The position numbers and the translations under genes are program-made. The notes beneath the pieces are model-generated. The model made no database searches, had not been told where the DNA came from, and saw only the letters and a list, made by a program, of their open reading frames with translations. Shown here piece by piece: positions 4,073 to 64,000 of a stretch of 64,000 nucleotides of DNA (the first letter of the stretch is position 1; the number at the start of each line of letters is the position of its first letter). The DNA lies in the NCBI GenBank assembly GCA_030601845.1, contig JAUWAY010000001.1, positions 62,001 through 126,000 on the forward strand. The letters are read 5' to 3'. Origin of the DNA: Phycisphaerae bacterium. GTDB lineage: Bacteria; Planctomycetota; Phycisphaerae; Sedimentisphaerales; Anaerobacaceae.

Positions 4073-4822
4073 ATGTCAGGTCATTCACACTGGGCGGGCA
4101 TAAGATATAAAAAGGCGGTTACCGACGCCAAGCGGGGCAAGATGTGGAGCAAATTGGCCCGAATGATAATAGTTGCGGCCAAGAGCGGTGGTGGTGACCC
4201 TGCTGCGAATATTTCCCTGCGATATGCGATAGACAAGGCCAAGGCGGCCAATATGCCGAAAGATACGATAGAGAAGGCAATCAAGAAAGGCACCGGCGAG
4301 GTGAAAGGAGTCAATTTCGAGGAGGTGCTGTACGAGGGCTACGCACCTGGCGGAGTGGCCATAATGGTTGATGCCCTGACGGACAACCGCAACCGGACCA
4401 CGCCGGAAATCAAAAGGCTGTTCGAGAAGTTAGGGGGCTCGTTGGGGACAAGCGGGTGCGTGAACTGGATGTTCGCCAAGTTGGGTCTTATCACGGTCAG
4501 CACCGCTGAAGCCGACGAAGATGAGCTTCTGGAGATTGCCCTGGCAGCAGGGGCAGACGATATGCAAACTGTTGGGGGTATTTTTGAGATAACCTGTGCG
4601 CCAGCTGCTTACGAGAAGCTAAAAGAGCGACTGCAAGAAAAGGAGATAGCCACCGAGGTAGCCGAGATTTCGATGGTTCCGCAGAATACTGTGCCGGTCA
4701 ACGATGCGTCAACTGCGAAGAAGATAATTTCGATGATGGAGGCGTTTGAAGACCACGACGATGTTCAAAACGTATATGCAAACTTTGACATACCCGATGA
4801 AATCGTATCTCGTATATCGTGA
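4073..4822 (+). CDS. yebC: YebC/PmpR family DNA-binding regulator
   Basis: MSGHSHWAGIRYKKAVTDAKRGKMWSKLARMIIVAAKSGGGDPAAN; start revised from 3989 to ATG 4073. Confidence 0.95.
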   Translation: MSGHSHWAGIRYKKAVTDAKRGKMWSKLARMIIVAAKSGGGDPAANISLRYAIDKAKAANMPKDTIEKAIKKGTGEVKGVNFEEVLYEGYAPGGVAIMVDALTDNRNRTTPEIKRLFEKLGGSLGTSGCVNWMFAKLGLITVSTAEADEDELLEIALAAGADDMQTVGGIFEITCAPAAYEKLKERLQEKEIATEVAEISMVPQNTVPVNDASTAKKIISMMEAFEDHDDVQNVYANFDIPDEIVSRIS

Positions 4823-4872
4823 TTCGTATATCGTATATCGTATATCGTATATCGTATATCGTATATCGTTTT
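4803..4872. repeat. Heptad array (tcgtata)n overlapping the yebC stop codon
   Basis: Ten units of tcgtata or variants; the yebC TGA (4820-4822) is inside the array, which ends 4 nt before the stop of the convergent gene. Confidence 0.95.
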
Positions 4873-12509: not shown

Positions 12510-15500
12510 ATGAATCAGGTCATGAACAAATCGAAATTTCTAATCATTACGAGTGCCCTTGTTTTCGTCCTATGTATGCCGATGTATGCGTGGGCATTGG
12601 AAGAAGTTGCGTTAATGCCGACGCTCAACTGGCAGGGTTACAAGGGGCATCTGAACATCATTGACGTCAATGCCGGTATTATCACCCATAAAATTGATTT
12701 CAATGATTTTGACCATCCTATCCCGGATAGCGATGTTATAGTCACGCCGGACGGCACGACAGCATTAATGCCATCGTTTGATTATGTCGGTTTAACAGGT
12801 CATCTTAGAATAATCGATATCAACTCCGGGACGGTGAATCATAAAATTGATTTCGGCGATTTTGATCGCCCTATCGCAGGTGTCGATGTTGTCCTCACGC
12901 CGGATGGTATGACGGCGTTGATGCCAACGTTTGACTATGTCGGTTACACAGGTCATTTGAGAATAATCGACGTCAATTCCGGGGCGGTTACACACAAGAT
13001 TGATTTCAACGATCTTGACCATCCTGTCGGTGATGTCGATGTTGTAGTTACGCCGGATGGTATGACGGCGTTGATGCCGACATTCGACTATCTTGGTTAT
13101 ACCGGTCACCTTAGAATTATCGACATCAATTCCGGCGTCGTGAGACATAAAATCGATTTTGGCGATTTTGACCGACCGCTGCCCGGTTTGGATGTGGTTG
13201 TCACGCCTGACGGTATGACGGCATTGATGCCAACGTTTGACTACATCGGCTATACCGGTCATCTGAGGATTATCGACATTAACACCGGAGTTGTGAACCA
13301 TAAGATTGATTTCAACGATTTTGAACATCCGTGTGAAGATGTCGATGTTGTAGTTACCCCTGATGGAATGACAGCATTGATGCCAACGAGTGACTATACT
13401 ACTTACACCGGCCATTTGAGGATTATCGATATCCCTACGGGCGTTGTGAATCACAAAATCGATTTTTCCTTATATGACCATCCGATAGTGGCAGTAGATG
13501 TTGTAGTTACTCCCGACGGAACGACTGCGTTGATACCGACGTACGACGAAAGCGGCTTCAATGGTCACCTTAAGATTATTGATATCAATTCCGGCACCGT
13601 TACCAGCGAAGTTAATTTCCCCTTTTACGACCACCCAATCCGAGAAGTCGATGTTGTAGTTACGCCCGACAGTATGACGGCATTGATGCCGACATACGAC
13701 TATTCCGGTTACAACGGGCACCTGAAGATTATCGATATTGGTACCGGCACAGTGAATCATGAAATTGATTTTGCCATATATGACCATCCGATAACGGGTG
13801 TTGACGTTGTTATCACAGCAGATGGTTCGAGGGCGTTGATGCCGACATTTGACTTTACCTATTACAACGGCCATCTGAGGATTATCGACATTAATTCCGG
13901 GACAGTGACCGGCCAAATCGATTTCCCTATACTTGACCATCCGCACTACGATGTTGACGTGGTTTTGACAAGCGACCCGAATATCGTGTTGATGCCGACC
14001 AATGATTACTATTACAGCAGCAGTCACCTGAGGATAATCGATATCAACTCAGCCACTGTGAATCATAAAATTGATTTTAACAATTTTGAACATTTGGTTT
14101 GGGGTGTTGACGCAGTTGCCTGCTCCGAAGCAGGGCCGAGCTATCCGGTTTCGCTCGACGAGGATTTCTATGGCTGGCGAGAACCCATTGAAGAATGCAA
14201 TGAGCCCAACGAACCTAATGAACCACCTGACGACGGAGATGGCAACGGAGATGATGATGGAGGAGAGGAAGAAGATGACGAACATACATTACAGCCGGGT
14301 GAAAGTGTTGAAATTAAAGTGGCTAATTATTATGTACCTGAGCATAAGAAGCTGGTTATAATTTCGTTTACCGGCGCAGGTGCTGATGAAAATATAAGTG
14401 TAACAGATGCCTGGGGAGTCGATGACAGTGGCAATGAGGTAGATACGGCTCAAGTGGCAGAAGGGCGAGACCCGGAATTGGGGACGGTAGTATATACGTT
14501 TACTTTCGACCCTCAGCCGGCCTTTGAAGTGTTTGAAGTTACAAATACCGGCGACGCCGCTTGTTCTTTTGAGGTTCAGGTCATATCGGTCTGCTTTAAT
14601 GTAAATGACTTCGACGCTGCTGTTGAACTCGGCGAGCCGAACACAATGGTAGTTGATAATATGTTCTTCTACTATGAGGGGAGCAGGGCTACTGTGGAAA
14701 TAGACCAGATCGCGATTATGCACGAGTATAAGAGTGCAGATAGCTGTTCTCCGCCGGTATTTATTCCGCCGGAGCCAAACGACCCCTGCCTGCCGAGCAG
14801 CCGGTACATTCCAAATTCACCGACCGGGAGCTGGAATATAGAATACATCGAGGAGCATCCGAGCGTTAGAGACCCTCTGGGAAAGATTATTGAAATCCCG
14901 CAGGGTGGGTGGCTGATAAGCTGCAAACGCTACGAACGCGGTATCTGGGAGACAGAAACATTCAGTCTTTCGATGACAACAACGGAGATGGCAGGCGGCA
15001 AATATATACTGCTTGTGCATGACCGACTCAGAGATGAATGGTTCGATTTCTCGTTCATAGCAGATGGTGATTATCAGCTTACAGATAATTTTGAGGCGTA
15101 TGCGAGCGGTTCGGAGTTGAGAAGTACTTGGAATGAGTTAGGCAACGCGCAAGTAGGTCTTTCGAGGAATACAGAGCATGTTCTCGGAGGTGAGCAGTCG
15201 ATGCGTTACAACTATGACAATAGCCTGCCGCCTTATTATTCTGAGGTCAAAGCCGACACTTATGATTTGCAAATCGGCTCGGACTGGACCGTAGAAGGTG
15301 TTGTAGAATTGACACTATTTGTTCAGGGCAAGGGCGACAACGACGTTGGTGAGAGGATGTATGTTACCGTTAAAGATAAGGACTATAATAGCAAGACAGT
15401 AAGGTACGACGGTGACCCGAATGTTTTGAGCGACGCAAACTGGTTCGAGTGGAACATTCCTCTAATGGAATTCAGTGATAGTAGCGTTGACCTGGAGAAT

Positions 15501-28340: not shown

Positions 28341-29669
28341 ATGGTCAGCAAATATTTTGAATTGAGAGAAAAGCAGACAAGTGTCAGGGTCGAGCTCGTG
28401 GCGGGGATTACGACATTTCTTACAATGGCGTATATCATTTTCGTCAATCCGAACATTCTGAGCGAGACGGGAATGGATAAAAATGCGCTGATAGCTGTTA
28501 CCTGCATAGTTACCGCTATTGCCACCATTGTCGTAGGGGTTTTTGCGAAGGCGCCGATAGCGATGGCACCAGGGATGGGACTTAACGCCTTTTTCACATA
28601 CAGTCTCGTGTTGGGCGACAAAATTAGCTGGGAAACGGCGTTGGGGGTGGTGTTTCTTTCGGGACTGTTTTTTCTGCTGTTAACACTATTGGGTTTGAGA
28701 AAAAGAATAGTCGAGGCGATACCGGTTAGTTTGATTTCGGCGATATCGGTTGGTATAGGATTGTTTATCACGTTTATTGGACTGGTTAAGCTTGGGGTGG
28801 TTGTTAATAACGAGGCGACACTTGTCTCAGCGGGCCAATTGACGCCGACGGTGCTGATAGGTCTGTGCGGGCTGATTGTAATGGTCTTTCTTGAGACGAA
28901 AAAAATAAAAGGCGCATTGTTAATTGGTATTGTTTTTTCGACTGCTCTGGCTGCAATCTTCGGATATATACAAAAGCCAACAGAAATAATCAGCCTGCAT
29001 CTTGATATAAAGGCCGTGGCGTTTCATCTTGATATTTTAGGGGCGCTTAAGTGGAGTCTGTTCGCAAGCATCTTCAGTTTGATGTTTATGGATATGTTTG
29101 ACAGTATCGGGACTCTGGTGGCGTGCTGTCACCAGGCGAATATGGTCGACGAGAAAAACAAAATAAAAGGGCTGGACAGGTTGTTAGGTATCGATGCCGC
29201 TGCGACTATGATAGGTGCGGTATTAGGGACATCGACCACAACTTCGTATATCGAATCGGCGGCAGGTATTGAGCAGGGTGGGCGGTCCGGATTGACTTCA
29301 ATAGTTACGGGCGTTTTATTTTTGCTGGCACTATTGTTTGTCCCGATCGTGAGGATAGTGCCGGAATATGCAACGGCGCCGGCGCTTATTATGGTTGGGC
29401 TGTTCATGATGAAAGAAGTCAAGAGAATAGATTTTGCGAATCTGGAAGAGGCGTTTCCTGCATTTATCATAATAGTGATGATTGCTTTGAGCTACAGCAT
29501 TAGCACCGGATTGGCGTTCGGATTTATATCATTTACCCTCATAAAAATAGTTTCCGGCAAAGCAAGAGAAATAAGAGCGGCGATGTGGATTATTGCGTTC
29601 TTGTCCGTACTGTTTTTGACACTTGACCAGCTAAACGTTACAATCCAGCGATTAAAAGACATTACTTAA
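28341..29669 (+). CDS. NCS2 family purine permease (AzgA-like)
   Basis: ELVAGITTFLTMAYIIFVNPNILSETGMDKNALIAVTCIVTAIATIVVGVFAKAPIAMAPGMGLNAFFTYS; GTSTTTSYIESAAGIEQGGRSGLTSIVTG. Confidence 0.95.
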   Translation: MVSKYFELREKQTSVRVELVAGITTFLTMAYIIFVNPNILSETGMDKNALIAVTCIVTAIATIVVGVFAKAPIAMAPGMGLNAFFTYSLVLGDKISWETALGVVFLSGLFFLLLTLLGLRKRIVEAIPVSLISAISVGIGLFITFIGLVKLGVVVNNEATLVSAGQLTPTVLIGLCGLIVMVFLETKKIKGALLIGIVFSTALAAIFGYIQKPTEIISLHLDIKAVAFHLDILGALKWSLFASIFSLMFMDMFDSIGTLVACCHQANMVDEKNKIKGLDRLLGIDAAATMIGAVLGTSTTTSYIESAAGIEQGGRSGLTSIVTGVLFLLALLFVPIVRIVPEYATAPALIMVGLFMMKEVKRIDFANLEEAFPAFIIIVMIALSYSISTGLAFGFISFTLIKIVSGKAREIRAAMWIIAFLSVLFLTLDQLNVTIQRLKDIT

Positions 29670-29693
29670 ACCGGATTTTGTGAGGAAAAGCTC

Positions 29694-30902: not shown

Positions 30903-30964
30903 TCGAATAATCAGATTGAAAGGTTAAAAGATATTGCTTAAACCGGATTTTGGGAGTAAAGATT

Positions 30965-59146: not shown

Positions 59147-62100
59147 TCAGTGGTTAAAAATTTTCCGCAGGACGGTTATTAGCGTTCTCGGCTCGAAATA
59201 ATTCGCAGGCAGGTGTAAATACACGGTCTTCGGGTCAGTGATTCTGATTTTGCCTTTTGTTTTTGAGAATAACGATTCAGCTTGCCCGCTTGCATCTTTC
59301 GTGAATGAGAATACCAAATTTTGTCCCGAAGTAACTATTGCTTTTATGTCCCATCTGCCTGCTTTAATTCGCAGCTCGGCCAAATCCAGCAGCAGCTTGA
59401 CCTCATCCGGCAGTGGGCCATAAACATCAGCTAATTCGCTCTGGATTTGTTTTAAGTCCTCGCTGCCTCTTGCAACCGCAATTTTGCGGTAAGCTTCCAT
59501 CCTGTCCCTGTCGGATGGTATGTAGTTTTTCGGTATATACGTGGTAAAGCCGAGGTCGATAACCGCTGTCGGTATTGGTTCAACCAGCTCATTTTTCAAT
59601 CTTTTTACGGCATCGGCCAACAGCTCACAATACATCTGGTAGCCGACCGTTTGAATATGGCCTGACTGCTCAGGCCCTAATATATTGCCCGCCCCGCGAA
59701 TCTCCAAATCTCTTAGGGCAATTCTAAAGCCGGCTCCTAAATGCGAATACTCTTCGATGGCCTTTAGGCGTCTGGCAGCGACCGGCGTAATGGGTCTTGA
59801 GACCGGCAGCAGCATATACGCGAACGCGCGATGTTTGTACCTGCCGACTCTGCCGCGAAGCTGATGCATCTCCGCCAGGCCGAATCTGTCCGCATCATTT
59901 ATAAAAATCGTATTTGCGTTCGGAATATCCAGGCCCGATTGGATAATGGTTGTGCATACAAGCACGTCAGTCTGGCCCATTACAAAATCTATCATCGCTT
60001 TTTCAAGTTCATTTTTGGCCATTTGGCCGTGTGCGATAGTAACCCTTGCGTCACCGACCAGCTTTTGAATTTCCCAGGCCTTTTTCTCAATCGTCTTAAC
60101 CCGATTGTGCACAAAAAAGACTTGTCCCTGACGGTTCAATTCTCGGTAAATCGCTTTTCTGATAAGCTCTTTGTTGTATGCAGTGACGGTTGTTACTATA
60201 CTTCGCCTGTCCAAAGGTGGGGTCGCCAGCGAACTTATGTCACGCAGACCGAGCAGCGACATATGCATTGTCCGCGGGATCGGCGTTGCCGTCATTGTAA
60301 GGACATCAACATTGACACGCAGCTTCTTGAGCTTTTCTTTGTGTTCGACGCCGAACCGCTGCTCCTCGTCGATTATCAAAAGCCCTAAATCCTTAAAGCC
60401 GACGTCGCCGCTGAGGAGCCGATGCGTGCCGATGAGTATGTCAACTCTGCCTGCTCTGGTTCGGGTGATTATATCTTTTGCCTGCTTCGGGGTTTTGAAG
60501 CGATTCAGAACCTCGATGCAAATCGGGAAATCTGCAAATCGTTCGGTGAAAGTCCTGCCGTGCTGAACGCATAATACCGTTGTCGGCACAAGCACCGCAA
60601 TTTGCTTGCCATTTTCGACCACCTTAAAGGCCGCACGCATCGCAAGCTCGGTCTTGCCGTAGCCGACGTCACCGCATAGCAGCCGGTCCATCGCGATGGC
60701 TTGCTGCATATCGGTCTTGATTTGCTCTGCGGTTGTGGTCTGGTCGGGCGTTTCCTGATAAGCGAAAGATTCTTCAAATTCGGCCTGCCAGTTCGAATCG
60801 GCACCGAATGCAATCCCGCCCATAGTCTGACGCTTTGCCTGAATCTGGAGCAACCCGCTGGCAAGACTTTCCACGGAGCGTGCAACCCGTTCTTTCTGTT
60901 TTCGCCATCTTTTTGAGCCAATCTTGCTGAGCTTCGGGCGTTTCGGACTTGTCCCTATGAACTTTTGCACCAGAGCAATGTTGCGCACCGAAACGTGGAT
61001 TTTCACCCCGCCGGCATATCCAATCGTAAGATACTCACCTGTTCCGCCTTCTTCCGCAATCGTTTTTATGCCCAGAAACTTACCGATGCCATAGGAGATA
61101 TGGACAACATAGTCACCCGGCTGCAAGTCGGCGAGTGTATCGACCGGCGAGCTCGCCCGTGCCGGTCTCCATCTTCTTCTCAGCGCCAATTGTCCAAACA
61201 GCTCGTGGTGACTTATAACAATGGTATTCAGTGAATTTATTACAAAGCCCTGATGAATAAAGCCCTGCAGCAGTTTAAAATTCGCCGGCACCTTTTCGTT
61301 ATTCTGCGTTACAATTTCGGTTACACGCCTGATTTCAGCTTTAGCTTCGCAGTAGAACAATACTTTCTTTCCCTGCCTTGCCTGTTGGACCAGTTGCTCC
61401 AGGGCCGCTTTGTGGCCTGACCAGAGGGAAGCAGCCTTGTGCTGAAACTGCTGAACGCTTTTTATGCCCAGTTTAAGAAAATCAGAAGGCGCCGAAGTGG
61501 CAAATCTGCATATATGCAGTTGTGTAAATTTCTCAACGGCCTGGTAAATATCGGTCCAGCTATAAAGGCGCTGCGGCTTGTCGGCTCGCTGCCGAAACAG
61601 CTTTGCAACCTCTTCTGAGTCGGTCGGCTCTTCAAAGATTATTATGGTACTTTCCGGCAGGATGTTTACGAAAAGCTCTCTTTGGTGCTCTGCAGCCCCA
61701 CACACCACCGACGCTATCACCAGAGTTTCTATCTGTTGGCTCGAGCGATGCGTGTCCAGATTGATTTCGCGAATACTCTCTATAGTGTCTCCAAAAAATT
61801 CAATCCTGACTGCCTCAGCACCCTGCGATGTTTCACCTTGCTGCGATTTGTCATAGAGAGCTTTTTCGCTGACCAGCGGCGCATAGATATCAACAATTCC
61901 GCCGCGACGTGCAAACTGGCCCGGCAAATCAATTCTTTCGACATGCTCAAATCCACTGTCAACCAGCCAGCCGGCAACTTTCTCCGGCGACATCGCCTTG
62001 TTTATTTGCAATCGAAGAGAGCTTTTCTCTAACTGCTCAGGCTTCGGTACCGGCTGACAGAGCGCCTGTATCGACGCGGGTATGACAACTTTGTTTCCGT

Positions 62101-62440
62101 TCGGACGACATACGATATACGACATACGACATACGAGTTTAAGTCTTTCAGCCCTTATCTCATCGGTGGCGTCGGCTAAATCTTCTTCGCCCTCCCAGGC
62201 CGCCAAGGGCTGGACCTGTCCGGCCCCAAAGGTCTGTAAATCGTCGGCGGCTTTGTCGGCATCGTCAATATGCGGACAGATATACAAAATCGGCCTGGTA
62301 AGTTTCTCCGATATGTAAGAGGTCAATAAATGCGCAAAGGACCCCCACGTCCCCTCGACTTTAACCACCTCCCCGCCGCCCCTGGCGGCTTCAAGCCGGG
62401 AGATTAGCTTCGCAACCGTTTTATCGTGACCAAGATCCAT
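59147..62440 (-). CDS. mfd: Transcription-repair coupling factor Mfd
   Basis: 1097 aa; DMQQAIAMDRLLCGDVGYGKTELAMRAAFKVVENGKQIAVLVPTTVL; MTATPIPRTMHMSLLGLRDIS; LRGRVGRYKHRAFAYML. Confidence 0.97.
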   Translation of the reverse strand: MDLGHDKTVAKLISRLEAARGGGEVVKVEGTWGSFAHLLTSYISEKLTRPILYICPHIDDADKAADDLQTFGAGQVQPLAAWEGEEDLADATDEIRAERLKLVCRMSYIVCRPNGNKVVIPASIQALCQPVPKPEQLEKSSLRLQINKAMSPEKVAGWLVDSGFEHVERIDLPGQFARRGGIVDIYAPLVSEKALYDKSQQGETSQGAEAVRIEFFGDTIESIREINLDTHRSSQQIETLVIASVVCGAAEHQRELFVNILPESTIIIFEEPTDSEEVAKLFRQRADKPQRLYSWTDIYQAVEKFTQLHICRFATSAPSDFLKLGIKSVQQFQHKAASLWSGHKAALEQLVQQARQGKKVLFYCEAKAEIRRVTEIVTQNNEKVPANFKLLQGFIHQGFVINSLNTIVISHHELFGQLALRRRWRPARASSPVDTLADLQPGDYVVHISYGIGKFLGIKTIAEEGGTGEYLTIGYAGGVKIHVSVRNIALVQKFIGTSPKRPKLSKIGSKRWRKQKERVARSVESLASGLLQIQAKRQTMGGIAFGADSNWQAEFEESFAYQETPDQTTTAEQIKTDMQQAIAMDRLLCGDVGYGKTELAMRAAFKVVENGKQIAVLVPTTVLCVQHGRTFTERFADFPICIEVLNRFKTPKQAKDIITRTRAGRVDILIGTHRLLSGDVGFKDLGLLIIDEEQRFGVEHKEKLKKLRVNVDVLTMTATPIPRTMHMSLLGLRDISSLATPPLDRRSIVTTVTAYNKELIRKAIYRELNRQGQVFFVHNRVKTIEKKAWEIQKLVGDARVTIAHGQMAKNELEKAMIDFVMGQTDVLVCTTIIQSGLDIPNANTIFINDADRFGLAEMHQLRGRVGRYKHRAFAYMLLPVSRPITPVAARRLKAIEEYSHLGAGFRIALRDLEIRGAGNILGPEQSGHIQTVGYQMYCELLADAVKRLKNELVEPIPTAVIDLGFTTYIPKNYIPSDRDRMEAYRKIAVARGSEDLKQIQSELADVYGPLPDEVKLLLDLAELRIKAGRWDIKAIVTSGQNLVFSFTKDASGQAESLFSKTKGKIRITDPKTVYLHLPANYFEPRTLITVLRKIFNH
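62105..62139. repeat. Heptad array inside mfd
   Basis: acgacat acgatat acgacat acgacat acgagtt; encodes LVCRMSYIVCRP. Confidence 0.92.
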
Positions 62441-62589
62441 AAACCAGCCGTACTTCTACTTTAGTCGTCCGGCTGTTTTGTGGTCTTTAGTCTTTTAAGT
62501 AATGCTATGGCCAAAAATAATAGCCCCTAAAAAAGTCAGTTTGTTCATGACTATCACTTTTCTTTTTTCTTATTTTCAATAATCAATAA

Positions 62590-62687
62590 TCATTTGTCAA
62601 TAATCAATTTCTTCGCTACCTCTACAACTTTCTCTGCTGTAATGCCGAGCTTCTCGAAGCAGACCCCGTCAGGACTTGCTTTCAACA
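62590..62687 (-). pseudogene. Orphan 3' end of a transketolase gene
   Basis: - strand reads ASPDGVCFEKLGITAEKVVEVAKKLIIDK*, matching the tkt C-terminus SAPGKVCFEKFGITAEKVVKATKKVIEK*. Confidence 0.88.
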
Positions 62688-63250
62688 ATAGCTTTCTGCA
62701 GCAGTTTATCAATCCTTAGCATATTGGCCCACTTCTTCAGATGCTCAAAATCTAATGTCTCTGCCTGAATCCTTAAAACGCCGAGCACATCATTCCATTG
62801 ACGCTCCGAAACACACCCGCCGTCACGATACCATTGCAGCTTCAACAAAATAATATCCTCTGGAGAAATCACCGAGAAAGATTTTTCTATTGAATCGGGA
62901 AGTCTTATATGTCTCCGTCGAGCCAGTAATTGTTCTTCAAATGCGTTTGTCTTGTGAACAAATACGTCTATCTTAAAAGCAGATTTTAAATGAATAACGT
63001 TGAAACTGCTCCGCTGCCTTAAAGCCTGTTGCATTGCCTCTTTGCTGACATAATATTCACCTTCAAGCTTTTCGAAGAGTTTATCAGCCACATCATCAAA
63101 AGGCTCAACAGTTAAATCTGCGTCCTGTGTGAAACGAACCTGGCCATATATGGAACTGGCCATCGAACCACCTATGGCATAGGCAATGTTCAATTGCTCA
63201 AGAATATCAATGAAACTGCGTAATATCACCAATTCTTCGGGATTATTCAT
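62669..63250 (-). CDS. Nucleotidyltransferase (DUF6036/MNT-like)
   Basis: MNNPEELVILRSFIDILEQLNIAYAIGGSMASSIYGQVRFTQDADLTVE: GGSxAS...G..R.T.DxDL; start revised to 63250. Confidence 0.8.
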   Translation of the reverse strand: MNNPEELVILRSFIDILEQLNIAYAIGGSMASSIYGQVRFTQDADLTVEPFDDVADKLFEKLEGEYYVSKEAMQQALRQRSSFNVIHLKSAFKIDVFVHKTNAFEEQLLARRRHIRLPDSIEKSFSVISPEDIILLKLQWYRDGGCVSERQWNDVLGVLRIQAETLDFEHLKKWANMLRIDKLLQKAIVESKS

Positions 63251-63488
63251 CGCAAAATCCCCCGTAAGCCTTCTCGTAAAGCTCATCACCGAGATGATGC
63301 CTCGCCCATAAACGCCAGATACCTGCTTCACCGACATCTGGATGCAACTGTCTCAGGCCTGCCATTGATAAAACCCTGCCGGTCTCATACATATCGAAAA
63401 TCCGTCTAACCTTAGCAGAGAGCGGCATTTTACGAGTAAGCTCAACTAAAATCTCCTGACATTGCTTACTTGTATCGTCTTGCTTCAT
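63243..63488 (-). CDS. Small partner protein of the nucleotidyltransferase
   Basis: 81 aa; KMPLSAKVRRIFDMYETGRVLSMAGLRQLHPDVGEAGIWRLWARHHLGDELYEKAYG; 8-nt ATGAATAA overlap with downstream gene. Confidence 0.75.
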   Translation of the reverse strand: MKQDDTSKQCQEILVELTRKMPLSAKVRRIFDMYETGRVLSMAGLRQLHPDVGEAGIWRLWARHHLGDELYEKAYGGFCDE

Positions 63489-63503
63489 ATTATTGCCCTG
63501 TGG

Positions 63504-64000
63504 CTATTTTTCTATCACTTTTTTAGTTGCCTTGACGACTTTCTCTGCTGTAATGCCGAATTTCTCGAAGCACACCTTGCCGGGTGCAGATGCGCCAAAC
63601 CGAGACAATCCAATAAAGATGCCTCTATCACCCAGCCATTTACTCCAGCCTAATTCGACGCCGGCTTCGATGCCGACCCTTGCTTTGACATCAGGCGGAA
63701 GAACCAAGTCTTTGTATTCTTTACTCTGCTTTTCAAACAGCTTCCAGCAGGGCATACTCACCACCTGTGCGCTAATTTTCTCAACAGCTAATCTTTCACA
63801 AGCATCTATAGCAATAGAAACTTCCGAGCCGGTCGCCAATAACAACACATCTGGTTTATCGGCACCGACAAGAACATAAGCGCCCTTACTCAGATTCGCC
63901 GCAGAAGCGTATTTGTTCTGGTCCAGGACAGGCAATCCCTGGCGAGTGAGAAGCAGGGCCACCGGGCCATCTCGATATTCCAGTGCGAACTTCCACGCTG
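63504..64000 (-). CDS. tkt: Transketolase, C-terminal part, truncated by window end
   Basis: AWKFALEYRDGPVALLLTRQGLPVLDQ...VLLLATGSEVSIAIDA...VGIEAGVELGWSKWLGDRGIFIGLSRFGASAPGKVCFEKFGITAEKVV. Confidence 0.95.
   Translation of the reverse strand, partial: AWKFALEYRDGPVALLLTRQGLPVLDQNKYASAANLSKGAYVLVGADKPDVLLLATGSEVSIAIDACERLAVEKISAQVVSMPCWKLFEKQSKEYKDLVLPPDVKARVGIEAGVELGWSKWLGDRGIFIGLSRFGASAPGKVCFEKFGITAEKVVKATKKVIEK

Follow-up and report, generated by a model that had tools for sequence, protein, structure and literature searches.

The 3′ end of tkt (transketolase) is present twice in the window, the stretch of 64,000 nucleotides analysed here, and a pair of small genes lies between the two copies. 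On the minus strand, the order is tkt, an antitoxin-like gene (81 aa; 63243..63488), a nucleotidyltransferase gene (193 aa; 62669..63250), an orphan tkt 3′ end carrying a stop codon of its own (62590..62665) and an mfd-like gene (59147..62440). The window contains the 3′ part of the intact tkt (63504..64000, minus strand; Pfam Transketolase_C_1, E = 1.9e-40); the gene runs off the window end, and its complete genomic copy is a single open frame, 685 codons long. Its C-terminal end reads ...SAPGKVCFEKFGITAEKVVKATKKVIEK with the stop at 63504, and the orphan end is translated as ASPDGVCFEKLGITAEKVVEVAKKLIIDK with the stop at 62590, both on the minus strand. The direct-repeat search detected the two ends as repeat D6, comprising 63514-63576 within the intact tkt and 62603-62665 in the orphan (63 nt, 83% identity, spacing 911 bp), and the local score of the pair was 35.5, compared with at most 12 in shuffled sequence. 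An earlier interpretation of this DNA, designated here as the sequence-only reading, had reported the tkt stop, the orphan end beyond a two-gene cassette and 22-nt identical blocks at 63538-63559 and 62627-62648, all of which were confirmed. It had also described the toxin stop as overlapping the orphan end. Weak similarity of the orphan to tkt extends to about 62679, and the overlap holds only if this weakly matching stretch (ASPDG) is counted; the TGA itself (62671-62669) is separated from the repeated block by 3 nt.

The window is part of a 153-kb contig (C24) of a fragmented, 75%-complete assembly of 1.86 Mb, and the named relatives of this genome belong to the Sedimentisphaerales and other Planctomycetota. 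A transketolase query against the whole genome matched the intact tkt and the orphan end only. Among 89 genomes, a second short tkt match was present only in the genome of the window, so that the orphan end was not found in relatives lacking the cassette. A second tkt that decayed down to its tail is likewise not the source of the orphan, which is preceded by the toxin gene and not by tkt sequence. Neither outcome named as refuting in the sequence-only reading was thus observed. An AT-rich stretch at the orphan end (62564-62612; TCAATAATCAATAATCATTTG...) has seven further similar copies in the genome, so that a dispersed repeat borders the insertion on its outer side.

The two genes very probably constitute a MenAT1-like toxin-antitoxin (TA) module. 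The listed open reading frame of the toxin started at 63337 (222 aa); the conserved ATG at 63250, which is common to the relatives, gives the 193-aa protein, and this frame overlaps the end of the antitoxin gene. The GGSMAS and DAD active-site motifs are conserved, and the GS...DxD feature of MenT-type toxins is thus present. When a profile of 14 relatives was compared with solved chains, the first match was M. tuberculosis MenT1 (PDB 8an4) with an E value of 2e-5. The five best fold matches of the AlphaFold2 model (pLDDT 91.6) were all MenT1 or MenAT1, with about 20% sequence identity to MenT1. The antitoxin-like protein matched the Pfam family Rv0078B below its cut-off (E = 0.0023; 18.3 bits versus 27.1), while its position and size fit MenA1 (Rv0078B), and 5 of 11 antitoxin relatives matched the family with a best E value of 1e-4. 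In M. tuberculosis, MenA1 is reported to be encoded upstream of MenT1, a tRNA-modifying toxin (PMC10435456). The assignment therefore relies on the profile and fold matches of the toxin, the Pfam affinity of its partner and the MenA1-MenT1 gene order, and the resemblance to a two-gene TA-like module noted in the sequence-only reading is borne out as one to MenAT1. Toxicity of the nucleotidyltransferase would be expected from this relationship. The pair in the window and MenA1-MenT1 (Rv0078B-Rv0078A) share the nucleotidyltransferase fold, a small upstream partner gene (antitoxin-like in the window) and the gene order, but the toxin is distant in sequence, the antitoxin-like protein scores under the Pfam cut-off, and the sections of the MenAT1 literature consulted do not describe gene-end scars. 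The PADLOC and NCBIfam searches returned no useful match for the gene pair, and neither the locus nor the toxin had a match in the plasmid (distant blastn) and phage (tblastn) collections.

In five genomes of the same family (G030, G066, G067, G068, and G069), tkt and mfd are neighbours without a cassette, 24 to about 280 nt apart, while other same-family relatives have other genes between them. The adjacency or proximity of the two genes in many relatives indicates that tkt-mfd is the ancestral order, with mfd as the downstream neighbour. Genome G045, from another genus, carries the same antitoxin-toxin pair at the same tkt site, without a recognisable orphan. The C-terminal -IEK of the intact tkt is common only to G045 among the listed relatives, and a short stretch before the antitoxin start of the window can be aligned to the same genome. 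Both features fit an import together with the cassette, and the orphan adjoining mfd may represent the native tkt end. The genomes compared at this site, which include no same-genus empty tkt site, all belong to genera other than that of the window organism, and we therefore infer the polarity at tkt. In two further genomes (G041:C502 and G083:C2), the tkt match is split in two on a single long open frame (758 and 726 codons, respectively), with extra sequence between the parts in the C-terminal region. At 62108-62137, near the mfd N-terminus in the window, the reading frame includes a heptamer-like run (ATACGATATACGACATACGACATACGAG), and a similar run occurs at 4802-4871; in mfd of G045, roughly this position is occupied by a different short repeat (CATCTCTCATCTCCCATCTCCC).

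To survey the flanks of related toxins, 118 loci were gathered, and 119 toxin places were tested for sequence before the antitoxin that is repeated after the toxin (score threshold of 17). Diverged direct repeats of 34–111 nt flank 20 of the 119 places, and most related cassettes have no detectable repeat. The threshold was exceeded at 1 of 119 places when the downstream side was reverse-complemented. Two other controls gave rates of 1.6–1.9%: of 186 placements chosen at random within these loci, 3 passed, and of 573 pairs formed across loci, 11 did so. The resulting Fisher p values (about 1e-6 to 2e-9) are a guide only, because the set includes some duplicated records and part of the tmk cases share common descent. 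Within the window, 10 of 300 control placements passed the threshold, probably reflecting a tandem array of 153-nt units at 12.6-14.1 kb. Low-score matches at three loci (L091, L117, and L148) may be dispersed repeats and were given no weight.

The repeated pieces are mostly gene ends, and the host genes differ between the loci. The 3′ ends belong to purE (L097, in frame with the last codons of the toxin), glnS (L116, convergent), a PHP-AAA gene (L048) and a VKGC-domain gene (L051), both from Chloroflexota, and tRNA-Thr (L089). A 3′ end of ribF, spotted by eye, lies ~0.9 kb behind the toxin of L042, past a second TA pair. The 5′ ends are those of tmk (L128, L130, L134, L138, L141, and L142) and holB (L149), and the repeats of L084-L086 and L103 are intergenic or without an assigned gene. 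No core sequence shared among the repeats was seen by eye. The proposal of 3′-end-targeted integration in the sequence-only reading is too narrow, as the 5′ ends of tmk and holB are used as well.

The origin of each end could be observed at tmk, where three pairs of congeners are filled and empty, respectively (G013/G012, G018/G016, and G066/G071). The tmk query had a partly approximate tail and was used solely to locate the tmk genes. The orphan tmk start matches the native leader in 39, 36, and 36 of 39 nt in the three pairs and then breaks off. The working gene shows the opposite pattern in its leader, which matches that of the congener in 13, 17, and 13 of 39 nt, while its body matches in 58, 56, and 59 of 60 nt. 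Hence, the orphan is the native leader, and the working gene consists of a foreign leader and a native body. The leaders of the working copies are alike across genera. The inserted piece therefore comprised the antitoxin, the toxin, the leader, and the first tmk codons, and it was joined to the native tmk in the conserved P-loop DNA of this gene. The outer joints are common to G018, G066, and G068, despite the native leaders of the orphans in G018, G066, and one of G068, which suggests that the incoming piece bore a short outer gene end too. The view that a replacement gene end arrives with the incoming DNA is thus supported directly at tmk by the empty-site congeners and by analogy at tkt. 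In L141 (G014) and L142 (G069), the tmk gene behind the cassette represents a divergent second type (about 56% DNA identity), while the congeners have the usual type; here the whole tmk may have been exchanged along with the TA pair.

We consider it probable that the 0.9-kb unit in the window (antitoxin, toxin, and one tkt end) is a MenAT1-like cassette that was acquired when DNA recombined at the conserved end of a housekeeping gene. A separate version of the tkt 3′ end would have arrived on the incoming DNA, a crossover within a conserved tkt stretch would have rebuilt a complete tkt, and the native end would have been left beyond the cassette beside mfd as a non-functional orphan. The engine was most likely host homologous recombination with the flanking gene-end copies serving as portable homology arms, and the DNA could have entered either as a circle by a single crossover or as a linear fragment by a double crossover. 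Retention may then have been favoured by toxin addiction. The unit holds two genes only and no recombinase gene, and the scars suggest that such pairs enter without a recombinase of their own, the spare gene end repairing the interrupted gene. No integrase (Phage_integrase match) was found in the unit or on contig C24, and an inverted-repeat scan detected no terminal inverted repeats at the unit ends. A classical transposon was rejected, as the unit has neither inverted ends nor a further gene. In homology-facilitated illegitimate recombination, one homologous arm anchors foreign DNA and the other end joins without homology. The anchoring by one homologous arm is similar to the present case, but under that process the length of the orphans and the outer joints would vary at random, whereas the repeats here measure 34–111 nt and the outer joint recurs in the three genomes sharing it at tmk.

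Several observations at tkt were counted against the import of a gene end. The intact and orphan ends are about equally distant from the relatives (DNA identities of 0.62–0.77 and 0.63–0.78, respectively), the changed codons between them comprise 5 synonymous and 5 non-synonymous ones, G045 has the pair without an orphan, and a same-genus empty site is lacking among the genomes compared. More generally, the frequent absence of a detectable repeat and the codon differences of L103 also count against it. The same codon data bear on an alternative in which the cassette was inserted with a long target duplication, so that the host's own end was duplicated and the spare copy decayed. For restriction-modification (RM) systems, insertion has been reported to produce long target duplications of variable size, around 100 bp (Nobusato 2000 and Furuta 2010, cited in PMC3874152, PMC3031569, and PMC1643837). 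RM insertion resembles the present case in the two-gene addiction module, the long variable direct repeats and the lack of a transposase; the 63-nt repeat of the window and the lengths at the related loci fit the reported order (PMC3874152). The differences at L103 (0 synonymous, 4 non-synonymous) match plain duplication followed by decay, as would the non-synonymous half of the changed codons in the window and the replacement of F by L in the orphan at a position where all listed relatives have F. However, among the changed codons of the twelve coding cases, 56 are synonymous and 32 non-synonymous, a synonymous fraction of 0.64. A single copy changing neutrally would be expected to give 0.24, and a duplicate that subsequently decays about 0.37. 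Tested against 0.39, the excess gave p values of 2.6e-6 for all cases and 0.0014 when the tmk cases were left out. Most differences therefore arose while both copies belonged to working genes, and a mainly synonymous divergence is what would be expected for ends from two lineages; besides L103 and the window, the exception is G066 (1 synonymous, 3 non-synonymous). In addition, duplicating host DNA cannot account for the foreign leader of the working tmk; the repeat at tmk is therefore no copy of host sequence, in which respect, too, it differs from that of the RM insertions in the cited sources. The cargo is also different, being TA (MenAT-like, HEPN/MNT, BrnT/CopG, and PemK) instead of restriction-modification. 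A long target duplication is accordingly unlikely, and import of a gene end by host recombination is preferred.

A site-specific integrase acting in trans is considerably less likely still. The cassettes would then be non-autonomous satellites with the gene-end copies as attachment sites, as in the case of prophage e14 in icd. This prophage supplies a replacement icd end of 165 bp with 12 nt changes and two conservative residue changes, and the native end is orphaned (PMC11148124); prophage Rac at ttcA uses the 5′ end of a gene (PMC11148124, PMC6379469). The rebuilt gene, the mostly silent changes and the orphan end are the e14/icd outcome, tRNA 3′ ends are among the targets, and the genome of the window has five integrase-like genes. 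The likeness lies in the restoration of the target gene by the end of the incoming DNA, which is seen in the filled/empty pairs at tmk and would apply to tkt. On the other hand, e14 and Rac are prophages with site-specific integration, while the unit here is 0.9 kb with many targets, and neither it nor its 153-kb contig encodes an integrase. The targets comprise at least eight unrelated genes, which would require as many integrases, and a common core among the repeats is missing to the eye. An assembly or binning artefact joining the tkt ends of different organisms on one contig, conceivable for a fragmented and incomplete genome, is barely credible given that the same architecture occurs at several target genes in many independent genomes, including the single-contig G028.

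The antitoxin and toxin DNA of G018 (genus g7) and G069 (g39) is 92.5% identical, as compared with 76.9% for tkt and 56% for tmk. The toxin tree groups by site (12 changes versus 49.8 in shuffles), and genera are mixed in its tmk clade. Therefore, the modules cross genera and mostly keep their site. Other TA families are found at the same kind of scar. At locus L160 of G047 (G047:C380:13800-17300, positions 986-2663), the working tmk is preceded by two orphan starts, the first followed by a HEPN/MNT pair and the second by a MenAT-like pair, an arrangement that points to insertions from different TA families stacked at a single gene. A PemK-like toxin lies between the second and third gene-end copies of L051, and a BrnT/CopG pair stands beside the MenAT-like pair of L042 with the ribF orphan farther out. 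Hence, the mode is not bound to one toxin family. There is an even chance, in our estimation, that small TA modules of several unrelated families form a recombinase-free mobile class in Planctomycetota and Chloroflexota, which would carry spare ends of housekeeping genes, spread across genera, insert by host recombination, rebuild the gene, leave the native end as a scar and stack at one gene.

The scars bear on how small chromosomal TA pairs move without transposases or integrases, and a short literature search found no report of this gene-end scar mode for TA modules. They record the point of entry, which end is native and which foreign, and the use of the same doors by different TA families, and they make the mechanism experimentally testable. 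An orphan end of a conserved gene beside a TA pair offers a simple genomic signature for TA acquisitions.

Further repeats and candidate cargo were observed. The tandem array in the window (12609-14089) consists of ten 153-nt coding-like units that are 61–84% alike. A 37-nt direct repeat (29652-29688 and 30924-30960; 89% identity, spacing 1272 bp) surrounds one gene and might reflect either common regulatory sequence or a further insertion. Several tmk scars (L161, L162, L160, and L168) are accompanied, upstream of the orphan or working gene start, by a recurring small membrane-protein family of unknown function (MWLPKDER...YDLGRKYSS...), which may be another cargo.
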